From Actinomycetota bacterium (GTDB lineage: Bacteria; Actinomycetota; Acidimicrobiia; Acidimicrobiales; RAAP-2), in NCBI GenBank assembly GCA_009699875.1, contig WLNI01000001.1:558001-622000 (forward strand): a DNA stretch of 64,000 nt, in the 5' to 3' direction. Position numbers and translations under genes: made by a program. Positions 1,624-5,660 of the stretch are shown here, piece after piece (the first letter of the stretch is position 1; the number at the start of each line of letters is the position of its first letter). The notes beneath the pieces were generated by a model. That model searched no databases. It saw only the letters and a list, made by a program, of their open reading frames with translations, and was not told where the DNA came from.

Positions 1624-1701
1624 CTCACCTTCCTCCTTCTTGATGAAGGAACCTCGTATGCTTAGCCAGATGAACAAATCTGCCTCCCTTGGGGCGTGGT
1701 G

Positions 1702-2628
1702 ATGGCAGGTATTCGAATAACAGGCTGGGGCATTGGACTTCCTGATCGCATCGTGACGAATGAGGAGTTATCCCAAACGCTCGACACCTCTGATGAGTGG
1801 ATTCGGGAGCGATCTGGGATTCATCAACGCCATATTGGGGGAACGACCTCCTCACTCGCGGTGATCGCGGGGCGTGCAGCAATGGATCAGGCTGGCGTGA
1901 CCGGTGATGATGTCGACATGGTGCTCCTGGCGACAACGACTCCAGATAAGACCGTTCCTGGGACTGCACCAACCGTTCAACATGCATTAGGAATCACTGG
2001 AGGCGCAGTCGATCTGAATGCCGCCTGCTCTGGATTCGTCTATGGCCTTGTTTTTGCATCAGGGCTCATAGCAACAGGGGCCAAGAGAGTCCTCCTCATC
2101 GGCGCTGAAACGTTGTCTCGCATTGTCGACTGGGAAGACCGTGGAACTGCAATTCTTTTTGGGGATGGAGCAGGTGCGCTGCTCATAGAGGCGACTGATG
2201 ACGAGGGTGACCTCTTAAGTTGGGACCTGGGCAGCGATGGGAGTCTGACCGACCTCCTTTACTGTGAACACGGCGACGCCATCCATATGGAAGGGAAAGA
2301 GGTCTTTCGACGAGCTGTTCGAGTGATGGTCGATTCTTCAACGAACGCGATGAGCCAGGCCAACGTAACTGCCTCCGATATTTCACTTGTTATTCCCCAC
2401 CAAGCAAATATGCGGATTATCCAAGCAGCATGCCAGCGACTGGAGATTCCCGAGGAGCGAGCCGTTGTCGTCATGGACCGCTATGCCAACACGTCGTCGG
2501 CATCAATCCCACTGGCATTTGTTGATGCGATTGAGAACGGAAGGATTCACCCCGGAGACCTTCTCCTCCTTACAGGCTTTGGAGCTGGGATGACCTGGGC
2601 AAGCGCGGTGTTGCGATGGCCTCGCTAA
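1702..2628 (+). CDS. fabH: 3-oxoacyl-ACP synthase III (KASIII)
   Basis: NAACSGFVYGL (Cys), IPHQANMRI (His) and YANTSSASIPLA (Asn) catalytic motifs; start set at ATG 1702. Confidence 0.88.
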   Translation: MAGIRITGWGIGLPDRIVTNEELSQTLDTSDEWIRERSGIHQRHIGGTTSSLAVIAGRAAMDQAGVTGDDVDMVLLATTTPDKTVPGTAPTVQHALGITGGAVDLNAACSGFVYGLVFASGLIATGAKRVLLIGAETLSRIVDWEDRGTAILFGDGAGALLIEATDDEGDLLSWDLGSDGSLTDLLYCEHGDAIHMEGKEVFRRAVRVMVDSSTNAMSQANVTASDISLVIPHQANMRIIQAACQRLEIPEERAVVVMDRYANTSSASIPLAFVDAIENGRIHPGDLLLLTGFGAGMTWASAVLRWPR

Positions 2629-3500
2629 GGGGTCCTTCGCTCGTCATTCTGGCCGCGGGACGAGCCCGCCGCTTCGGCGGGATTAAGCCTCTCGCCCCCA
2701 TTGGCATCAACGGGGAAGCCGTTCTCGATCTTGGCGCGAGTGACGCCATCACTGCAGGCTTTGCTCAGATTGTTATCGTCATCAATAACGAAACTGGCCC
2801 TGTGATCCGAGACCATATCGCCAACACGTGGCCATCAAACGTACGGGTGGAGTTTGCGATCCAAGACCGACCACTTGGAACCGTCGACGCAGTATTGAGC
2901 GCTCGAGAATTTTGTGAGCACGGCGAACCATTCGCTGTGATTAATGCCGATGATCTCTATGGCACTGACGCCCTCGGAATGACGGTCAAGCACTTGGTTA
3001 GCACTCCGACCAATATGTTGGTCGGATTCCGTCTTGATCGAGCCTTGGTAGGAAGCGATCCAGTCACTCGAGGAATTTGCGAAGTTATTGATGGTCGACT
3101 CGCCTCGATTACTGAGCGCCGGAGCGTCGTCGCACTCGAACATGGCTACGAATCGCATGATGATCTTGAGCCGAGATCACTCAACGCCGACGCATTGGTG
3201 TCGATGAATTTGTGGGGGTTCGTCCCCTCGATGTGGACTGTCTTTCAAATGGCCATGGAGCAGGCCGAGGCTGCCAGCGAAGACAATGAGGTTCTCCTCC
3301 CCGAACTTGTTTCCGATGTCCTTCAGGGGAGATATGACGCCCTTGATTCTGGCTTGAAAGAGTTCTCTGTTCTCCCGACCGACACTCGTTGTATCGGCGT
3401 CACTCATCCTGATGACCTTGGAGTTGTCCAGGAAGAAATTGCTCTCCAGATTAAACAGGGATTTCGCCCCAAGCGACCTTTCGAACTTTCTGGAACATGA
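2616..3500 (+). CDS. Sugar nucleotidyltransferase-like protein
   Basis: N-terminal LVILAAGRARRFGGIKPLAPIG nucleotidyltransferase signature; overlaps fabH 3' end. Confidence 0.8.
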   Translation: MASLRGPSLVILAAGRARRFGGIKPLAPIGINGEAVLDLGASDAITAGFAQIVIVINNETGPVIRDHIANTWPSNVRVEFAIQDRPLGTVDAVLSAREFCEHGEPFAVINADDLYGTDALGMTVKHLVSTPTNMLVGFRLDRALVGSDPVTRGICEVIDGRLASITERRSVVALEHGYESHDDLEPRSLNADALVSMNLWGFVPSMWTVFQMAMEQAEAASEDNEVLLPELVSDVLQGRYDALDSGLKEFSVLPTDTRCIGVTHPDDLGVVQEEIALQIKQGFRPKRPFELSGT

Positions 3501-4372
3501 CACGGACGTCTCGGCTCGTCATTGCCTTCGGGATTAACGTCTGCTTGAGCGTTGGACTTGTTCTCGCCGGTCACGTCGCCCACTCCACAAGCTTGGTTGC
3601 TGACGCAGGCCACAACCTCACTGATGCAATGGCAATTCTGATCGCCTTGGTCGCCACCATCGTCTCACTTCGCCCGCCAAGTGATCGGCGGTCCTACGGC
3701 TACGGGCGTGCCACTATTCTCGCAGCGCTCGTCAACGGCGTCGTCTTGACGTTTGTCACGATATCTATCGTTTGGCTGGGGGTTTCTCGTCTCCTCCATC
3801 CTCAACTCATGCACGGAGGCGTTGTCGTCATTGCGGCAACGTTCTCACTGCTTGCCAACCTTGTCGTCGTCTGGCTCTTGATGGAAGGCTCAGATGACAT
3901 GGGCATTCGAAGTGCCTTACTCCACTCTGTGAGCGACTCACTCAGTGCGTTCGTCGTCATTATCGCTGGATTCGTTGCTCTCTTTGCCAGCGGTCCCGTG
4001 GCGTTGCGAGTTGACCCGGTCGCCACGCTCATTGTTGCTGGATTTATTGTGGTTGAAGCCATTCGAATCACCAAGGAGAGTCTCCACGTGCTCTTGGAAG
4101 GTGTCCCGACCGACATCGACGTCGAGTTGGTGCGTCAGTGTCTTTGTTCATTAGAAGAAATAGAGTCAGTTCATGATCTCCATATTTGGAGTTTGTCCTC
4201 AAGTCATCGAGTCTTGAGCGCTCATCTCGTCGTGAAAGGCGACCCGACAGCGTCTGCCACAGCCCCTCTTATTGCGCGCACCCGTCACCTTTTGGACGAA
4301 CAGTTCTCGATCGATCACGCCACGCTTGAGATTGAGATTGCTCCGTGTAGTCCTGAGACTTCACATCTCTAA
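3497..4372 (+). CDS. Cation diffusion facilitator transporter (CDF, CzcD/ZitB-like)
   Basis: HSTSLVADAGHNLTDAMAI, LLHSVSDSLSAFVV, VHDLHIWSLSSSHRVLSAHL; ATGA overlap with previous gene. Confidence 0.88.
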   Translation: MTRTSRLVIAFGINVCLSVGLVLAGHVAHSTSLVADAGHNLTDAMAILIALVATIVSLRPPSDRRSYGYGRATILAALVNGVVLTFVTISIVWLGVSRLLHPQLMHGGVVVIAATFSLLANLVVVWLLMEGSDDMGIRSALLHSVSDSLSAFVVIIAGFVALFASGPVALRVDPVATLIVAGFIVVEAIRITKESLHVLLEGVPTDIDVELVRQCLCSLEEIESVHDLHIWSLSSSHRVLSAHLVVKGDPTASATAPLIARTRHLLDEQFSIDHATLEIEIAPCSPETSHL

Positions 4373-4399
4373 ACAATGATTTGAGCCGAGACGCGACGA

Positions 4400-4702
4400 A
4401 ACCCCGAGTGACTGGGCGGCCGAAGCCTCCCCGCCTCTCGGGGCGTCGCCCGAGTGGCAACCACCGCATTCCCAGGTTGTGTCGGACAACCCGAGGCCGA
4501 TGCGTCCGGTTCGTGTCCCGAAGGCCACGCCCGTGACGATGTGCCACCTACCTCGTTCACTCCGTGCCTCTGCAAAGTGCTCCTCTCGAAGCGCTCCGTG
4601 CCCCTCCTCAGTACTCCCGAAGGATCCCCCTGGAAAGACCATTCCCTGGTGACCCGAAGCTCACCCGACAACGTTCGGCGGGTTGTGTGAACCCGGCGTT
4701 GG
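4400..4702 (-). ncRNA. Candidate structured non-coding RNA of unknown family (ends approximate)
   Basis: No convincing ORF; four C(UUCG)G-capped hairpins on the minus strand (loops at 4655-4658, 4618-4621, 4519-4522, 4421-4424), further perfect stems CGGGTT/AACCCG (4679-4695) and GGTTGT/ACAACC (4475-4491); GC-rich; promoter-like element directly upstream. Confidence 0.55.
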
Positions 4703-4707
4703 GAAGC

Positions 4708-4736
4708 ATTGTGTGCTTTTCTCACGACGAGGTCAA
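4708..4736 (-). promoter_or_regulatory. Sigma70-like promoter for the candidate RNA: TTGACC-N17-CACAAT
   Basis: Minus strand TTGACC (4731-4736), 17-bp spacer, CACAAT (4708-4713), about 7 bp before the first structured bases. Confidence 0.5.
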
Positions 4737-4758
4737 GTAAAAATCGAAAATCCTCTGC

Positions 4759-4842
4759 TTATCCACGACCTTTTTCCTGTTCTCCACACGGAACCGTTCT
4801 CATCCCCAGCGCAATCCACAGATCGAACCATGGTTTCCCACA
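4759..4842 (+). promoter_or_regulatory. Cluster of five DnaA-box-like 9-mers
   Basis: TTATCCACG 4759-4767, TTCTCCACA 4780-4788, TCATCCCCA 4800-4808, CAATCCACA 4812-4820, TTTCCCACA 4834-4842; all same orientation, 1-2 mismatches to TTATCCACA. Confidence 0.4.
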
Positions 4843-4862
4843 AGGAAGGAGAAAAGGCGGAA

Positions 4863-5660
4863 CTAGAGCGGCGTGACGTAGGCGGCCGAGATTCCCCCAT
4901 CAACCAAGAAGGTGGAACCCGTAATGAAGGAGGAGTCATCACTCGCCAAGAAAGCTGCTGCCCCGGCCATCTCTGAAGCCTCTGCGAAGCGACCCATTGG
5001 AATATGAATGAGGCGACGAGCTGCTCGTTCTGGATCCTTCGCAAAGAGCTCTTGGAGAAGTGGGGTATTCACTGGCCCTGGGCAAAGGGCATTCACCCTT
5101 ACTCCTTGTCTCGCAAACTCAACGCCAAGTTCTCGAGACATCGAAAGCACTGCTCCTTTCGACGCGGTGTAGGAGATTTGGCTCGTGGCTGCTCCCATTA
5201 ATGCAACGAACGATGCCGTATTAATAATCGAACCACTTCCTCGCTCAAGCATGTAAGGGAGCACTGTTTTACAACAGAGGTAGACGGAAGTGAGATTGAC
5301 ATCTTGAACCCGTTTCCATGCATCAATTTCAGTGACAAGGATCGAGTCGTCATCAGGAGGGGAAATCCCGGCGTTGTGACACGCTATATCGATGCCTCCA
5401 TAGTGCTGAGCGGCTTGTGCGTAGAGATTTTTCACCTGATCGGCATCGGTGACATTCACAGGGATGAAAAGTCCGCCGACGTCGCTCGCCACCGATTCGC
5501 CTGCCGCAACATCCATATCCCCCACCACGACGTTGGCGCCTTCGGCAGCAAAACGAACTGCCATGGCTTGACCAATTCCACTTGCAGCTCCCGTGATCAC
5601 GGCGACACGACCTTCGAGTCGATGTGCTTTGGGATCCGTATTGGACGGTAGGGGTGACAT
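4863..5660 (-). CDS. SDR family oxidoreductase
   Basis: GRVAVITGAASGIGQ; YTASKGA; start moved to ATG 5660 (MSPLPS) with AAGGAG upstream. Confidence 0.85.
   Translation of the reverse strand: MSPLPSNTDPKAHRLEGRVAVITGAASGIGQAMAVRFAAEGANVVVGDMDVAAGESVASDVGGLFIPVNVTDADQVKNLYAQAAQHYGGIDIACHNAGISPPDDDSILVTEIDAWKRVQDVNLTSVYLCCKTVLPYMLERGSGSIINTASFVALMGAATSQISYTASKGAVLSMSRELGVEFARQGVRVNALCPGPVNTPLLQELFAKDPERAARRLIHIPMGRFAEASEMAGAAAFLASDDSSFITGSTFLVDGGISAAYVTPL

Follow-up and report, generated by a model that had tools for sequence, protein, structure and literature searches.

Evidence for a new family of large structured noncoding RNAs in the Acidimicrobiia

A segment of about 320 nt on the minus strand of a 64,000-nt stretch of Acidimicrobiia DNA (the window) is almost certainly the gene for a new conserved noncoding RNA. 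Taken as a whole, the evidence is best explained by a stand-alone, structured, trans-acting RNA that belongs to a family across the Acidimicrobiia and is probably part of a ribonucleoprotein (RNP). We regard this explanation as likely.

An unannotated structured RNA with its own promoter had been proposed by a sequence-only reading. The proposal was borne out by conservation, covariation, the lack of a match in Rfam and a noncoding pattern of change. Its coordinates (4378–4702) were correct within about 10 nt, the conserved RNA extending from about 4702 to 4386.

Structure and covariation

All four CUUCGG hairpins and both further stems described in that reading were found on the minus strand (Table 1). 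Counting hairpins with a UUCG cap and three or more uninterrupted pairs gave 2, against 0.22 expected, and 7 of 500 shuffles reached as high a count. Folding of the single sequence gave z = -2.44 against shuffles for the minus strand and z = -1.02 for the plus strand. The consensus fold of eight near relatives (own genus plus two near neighbours) had an energy of -170 kcal/mol, compared with -110.5 +/- 5.7 kcal/mol for column-shuffled alignments.

What is conserved is not the UUCG loop as such: several of the same hairpins are capped by GNRA loops in relatives. Exchange of UUCG with GCAA or GAAA at the same positions is what would be expected of real hairpins.

The homologues fell into two groups sharing a common 3' domain: group A, which resembles the window RNA (about 285–370 nt), and group B (about 265 nt). 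Covariation was strong. In the alignment of 41 group-B sequences, 75 pairs were defined, with 96.7% of the cells paired and 36 pairs altered on both sides. None of 500 shuffles equalled this on any of five measures, and slid controls were 39–46% paired. For the 3' domain of groups A and B together, 93.9% of the cells were paired and 18 pairs were altered on both sides.

The consensus of the 41 homologues consisted of a 5' domain of multiple hairpins and two separate 3' hairpins, namely the CCGAC-pentaloop hairpin and the terminal hairpin of 56 nt. Within the genus, the 5' hairpin showed compensatory changes (GAGUU/AACUC, GGGCU/AGCCC and GGGUG/CACCC). The loop of this hairpin can pair with bases 130 nt further downstream; among 400 random placements, 2 were as good, and the partner segment was tied for the best placed in the whole RNA. 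This long-range pairing is the counterpart of helix 1 in the group-B alignment.

Table 1. Positions of the RNA gene, its structural elements and the upstream elements in the window
Feature	Position	Strand	Remarks
ncRNA gene	4386..4702	-	5' end predicted at ~4702, some 6 nt past the -10
ncRNA gene, 3' limit	~4386	-	inferred from where conserved sequence ends
-35 TTGACC	4731..4736	-	kept in relatives
-10 CACAAT	4708..4713	-	CACACT in most same-genus relatives
Upstream element GTGGATAAGCAGAGGATTT	4748..4766	-	sole perfect match to the consensus pattern in own genome
DnaA-box-like repeat array	4759..4842	-	letters given as + strand
Repeat TTATCCACG	4759-4767		+ letters
Repeat TTCTCCACA	4780-4788		+ letters
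Repeat TCATCCCCA	4800-4808		+ letters
Repeat CAATCCACA	4812-4820		+ letters
Repeat TTTCCCACA	4834-4842		+ letters
5' hairpin CGGGUU/AACCCG	4679..4695	-	arms 4695-4690/4684-4679
Long-range pairing or pseudoknot	4556..4691	-	UUCAC (4691-4687) with GUGAA (4560-4556)
Hairpin GGUGAGC-UUCG-GGUCACC	4648..4665	-	GCAA/GAAA loops in L004, L005, L008
Hairpin UCC-UUCG-GGA	4615..4624	-	UUCG or GCAA loops in relatives
Hairpin GUGGCC-UUCG-GGACAC	4513..4528	-	UUCG or GCAA loops in relatives
CCGAC-pentaloop hairpin (GU-CCGAC-AC)	4474..4492	-	loop invariant in groups A and B, part of the motif having served to select many loci; stem covarying
Stem GGUUGU/ACAACC	4491-4486/4480-4475	-	
Terminal hairpin GACGCCCCGAG...GGCUUCGGCC...CUCGGGGUUUCGUC	4395..4447	-	R.A mismatch, invariant G.U; class-wide module
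Hairpin GGC-UUCG-GCC	4427-4418	-	
Tail GCGUCUCGG	4386..4394	-	class consensus about GCGUYCGG

Relatives and tandem copies

A 368-base query detected the RNA by BLASTN in 33 of 101 relatives, including 6/6 genomes of the same genus. A degenerate pattern derived from the 3' part matched at least 119 contigs in a collection of 85,488 species. Nearly all of the pattern matches listed carried the labels Acidimicrobiaceae, Acidimicrobiales, Actinomycetes or actinobacterium MAG, and the few labelled differently were taken as binning or naming errors. The named loci in the comparison are all MAGs. Because many loci were chosen by this pattern, the invariance of its letters was not counted as evidence; the same letters were also present, independently, in the set found by BLASTN.

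A few loci (L053, L136) combined a group-B RNA with the type of neighbourhood seen in group A (NTP-transferase/KAS III-like). This supported the common descent of the two groups.

Two models were used to search more widely, with E-values from a shortened calibration. Model R1, which represents the 3' domain and was partly trained on the window, matched 79 of the 296 class genomes searched; in a sample of 398 genomes from the phylum, 2 of those it matched lay outside the class. It scored the window at 96.2 bits. Model R2 was built from relatives in other orders only, leaving out the window and its taxonomic family. It matched the window at 4382–4451 (minus strand) with 43.7 bits and an E-value of 6.9e-9, and this RNA was its single match in the same genome at E <= 1e-4. 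In the phylum sample, R2 found two copies in each of the other-order genomes matched (6/6), 0.4–1.3 kb apart, and one match outside the class.

The other-order loci that were read out had the same terminal hairpin, a GCGUYCGG-like tail, CGCGAAAW boxes upstream and a TTGAC-type promoter, commonly in two copies close together. The window likewise has a terminal hairpin containing the R.A mismatch and invariant G.U, a GCGUYCGG-like tail after it and, upstream of the RNA, the gene's own promoter. Judged from these sequences, relatives occur throughout the Acidimicrobiia and often lie in tandem pairs. Between orders the 5' domain varies too much to be aligned, so that homology at the level of the class rests on the terminal module and the tail, together with the promoter arrangement and the taxonomic restriction.

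Many families of the same order (f7, f20 and others) had no match in the class and phylum model searches, the RNA being either lost or too diverged there. Tandem copies of the gene were seen at L104, L114 and L143 and at L166–L171, L174 and L175. In other orders, one of the tandem copies can be much longer and carry many additional GNRA/UUCG hairpins. The isolated matches outside the class (L172 in G541, L173 in G570 and G408:C253:51081-51152) may be either distant homologues or chance. At L172 and L173, a hairpin similar to the terminal module comes almost immediately after a promoter-like sequence.

Promoter, upstream repeats and neighbouring genes

The TTGACC-N17-CACAAT promoter noted earlier is present on the minus strand and was the sole sigma70-like site in 4200–4900 (0.2 expected). 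It is conserved among the relatives, and its distance from the RNA is fixed. No clean U-rich terminator was found at the RNA locus.

Repeats were abundant in the 150 bases above the -35 element. Over 69 dereplicated loci, this interval contained 114 DnaA-box-like sites against 8 expected, 111 TGGGGA sites against 7.4, and 67 GATTTCGC-like sites against 6.3, the expectations being from mononucleotide shuffles. Strong conservation of DnaA-box-like and TGGGGA repeats was observed at 4737–4842 of the window and in the upstream 150 bp of the 69 related loci.

DnaA is a possible binder of this array on sequence grounds, since boxes of the TTATCCACA and TTATCCCCA types were seen at the dnaA locus in the two genomes of the same genus that were examined. 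The boxes were also considered as part of oriC. This was rejected, as dnaA (C1:917758) is 355 kb from the RNA gene, and the locus is thus not a replication origin. A more specific proposal, in which a class-wide RNP RNA of undescribed mechanism would have its transcription tied by DnaA to the replication cycle, seems doubtful. If true, it would be a large structured noncoding RNA directly controlled by DnaA, with its promoter below an array of DnaA boxes; we know of no precedent for such direct control.

The Pfam domains of the neighbouring genes in the window are Cation_efflux, NTP_transferase, adh_short and Aldedh. Automatic ORF picking produced many false antisense genes in the relatives of high GC content; the neighbour clusters relied on here were checked with Pfam. 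The downstream NTP-transferase and CDF genes face the RNA gene in 69/69 cases, and the gene upstream of the RNA is variable among loci. Given this facing orientation and the conserved promoter of its own, the RNA is not the leader of the downstream gene. From its arrangement, the gene appears to be an independent transcription unit that stands alone at its locus.

On the facing strand, positions 1696–4372 of the window contain a conserved block of KAS III (FabH-like), NTP-transferase and CDF cation efflux genes, parts of which accompany the RNA at many group-A and a few group-B loci. The group-B loci inspected (L138, L059, L079 and others) had a convergent gene for an SRAP (SOS response associated peptidase) 3' of the RNA, confirmed by Pfam. 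Beyond it were genes of mutasome-like appearance (ImuA-like, Y-family polymerase-like and DnaE-like).

Known RNAs, alternatives and a possible mode of action

No family among 4227 Rfam models matched the RNA region at the gathering threshold. Relaxing the search to E-values up to 10 gave chance matches only. In 20 near relatives and 20 more distant loci no family matched at the gathering threshold either, apart from tRNAs. RNase P RNA (RF00010), tmRNA (RF00023) and SRP RNA (RF00169) are also structured bacterial RNAs, the first two of similar size. The sequence-only reading could not match the RNA to any of these, and each is located elsewhere in the same genome: RNase P RNA at C1:113556-113918 (248 bits), tmRNA at C3:3656-4006 (148 bits) and SRP RNA at C1:796607-796705. 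ARAGORN found no tmRNA in the window.

Among regulatory RNAs, those of the CsrB/RsmZ type, which sequester proteins, also have short repeated hairpins, but the loops here are GNRA or UUCG, not GGA. GGA was not in excess over dinucleotide shuffles (11.67 vs 11.39 expected in group A; 8.62 vs 8.79 in group B), and a CsrA sponge was rejected on this ground. Orphan RNAs such as raiA, OLE, GOLLD and ROOL are likewise large, conserved and of restricted range, with functions not evident from context; the present RNA differs in having no match to an Rfam model. No earlier description of it was found among open-licence papers.

The sequence-only reading had hinted at an RNA of the Ms1 type. The likeness to Ms1 RNA (MTS2823, scr3559) is that both are actinobacterial, about 230–300 nt, stand-alone and served by a sigma70-like promoter of their own. 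Published descriptions give Ms1 a size of about 300 nt (PMC4191392), a long hairpin that has a bubble at its centre, and an adjacent HAD hydrolase gene (PMC4191392, PMC9130861). The hint was not supported: the covarying fold here is multi-domain, with no long hairpin around a central bubble, and the neighbours differ. In place of the Ms1 synteny of a HAD hydrolase paired with an oxidoreductase (PMC9130861), an SDR oxidoreductase is present and a HAD hydrolase gene is not adjacent. Set against the published description, the multi-domain structure and the different neighbours are the reasons why the RNA was not filed as Ms1. The survey of Ms1 RNAs does not mention Acidimicrobiia in its main text.

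6S RNA shares with the present RNA a stand-alone, structured form and a promoter of its own, but its bubble resembling an open promoter within one long hairpin was not in the covarying structure here. The 6S model (RF00013) had no match in the window or elsewhere in the genome, which is weak evidence of absence, as many genomes are missed by the Rfam model (it matched 5 of 14 controls).

A functional counterpart of 6S or Ms1, which would bind RNA polymerase, tune its availability and replace 6S in the class, would agree with the size near that of Ms1, the lack of a 6S match in the genome, the own promoter and the single gene unit. We consider it quite unlikely: the conserved structure lacks the bubble-bearing hairpin that defines both RNAs, and the neighbours are CDF/NTP-transferase and SDR/ALDH genes rather than a HAD hydrolase gene (PMC9130861). 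A regulatory sRNA that base-pairs with mRNAs, using its loops or unpaired 5' segments, is unlikely. The tandem paralogues, and a 5' domain that changes fast while the 3' module stays fixed, do resemble sRNA families, but the 5' domain is mostly paired, its stable GNRA/UUCG caps would be poor seeds for target pairing, and no conserved unpaired seed was evident in alignment A1.

Most loci sit between convergent genes, and the part of the RNA most strongly conserved is its long, GC-rich terminal hairpin. These features would suit an element acting only in cis, as a large bidirectional terminator or a 3' UTR structure. Such an element would not explain the promoter kept at a fixed distance, the conserved 5' domain, the separate upstream boxes of each paralogue or the different neighbours of groups A and B, and this reading is very unlikely. 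A small protein gene is extremely improbable. Overlapping ORFs of 78–118 aa are present, but each same-genus relative had 4–7 indels of lengths not divisible by three as well as in-frame stops. Similarity at the protein level was spread over several frames, mostly only at the terminal hairpin, and no conserved ORF was found across the region in relatives. Coding was rejected on these grounds, in keeping with the earlier view that there is no credible CDS.

For the stand-alone, trans-acting RNA, we slightly favor an RNP mechanism, judged from the sequences. A sigma70-type promoter of its own, with a conserved array of putative protein-binding repeats upstream, would drive transcription of the RNA. 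Its lineage-variable 5' domain of GNRA- and UUCG-capped hairpins would be tied through the long-range pairing of the 5' end. The conserved 3' domain, with the CCGAC-loop hairpin, the long terminal hairpin and the GCGUYCGG-like tail, would be where a conserved protein binds. Three features resemble recognition sites: the CCGAC loop, which is fixed and unpaired, and, within the terminal stem, the R.A mismatch and an invariant G.U pair; from this resemblance we infer that the RNA may act as an RNP scaffold or decoy. The tandem paralogues would combine this 3' module with variant 5' domains.

The family is new and a natural new entry for Rfam, although its kind, the large orphan structured RNA, is already known. 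RNAs this large, covarying, class-wide and often in tandem usually mark a core cellular function, as do 6S, SRP and OLE. The Acidimicrobiia are widespread in soil, peat, mines and freshwater and are poorly studied, and to our knowledge neither 6S nor Ms1 RNA has been described in them. With the covariance models and a 3' module common to the family, homologue mining and pull-down are directly feasible. Identifying the partner of the RNA would show whether it replaces 6S or does something new.
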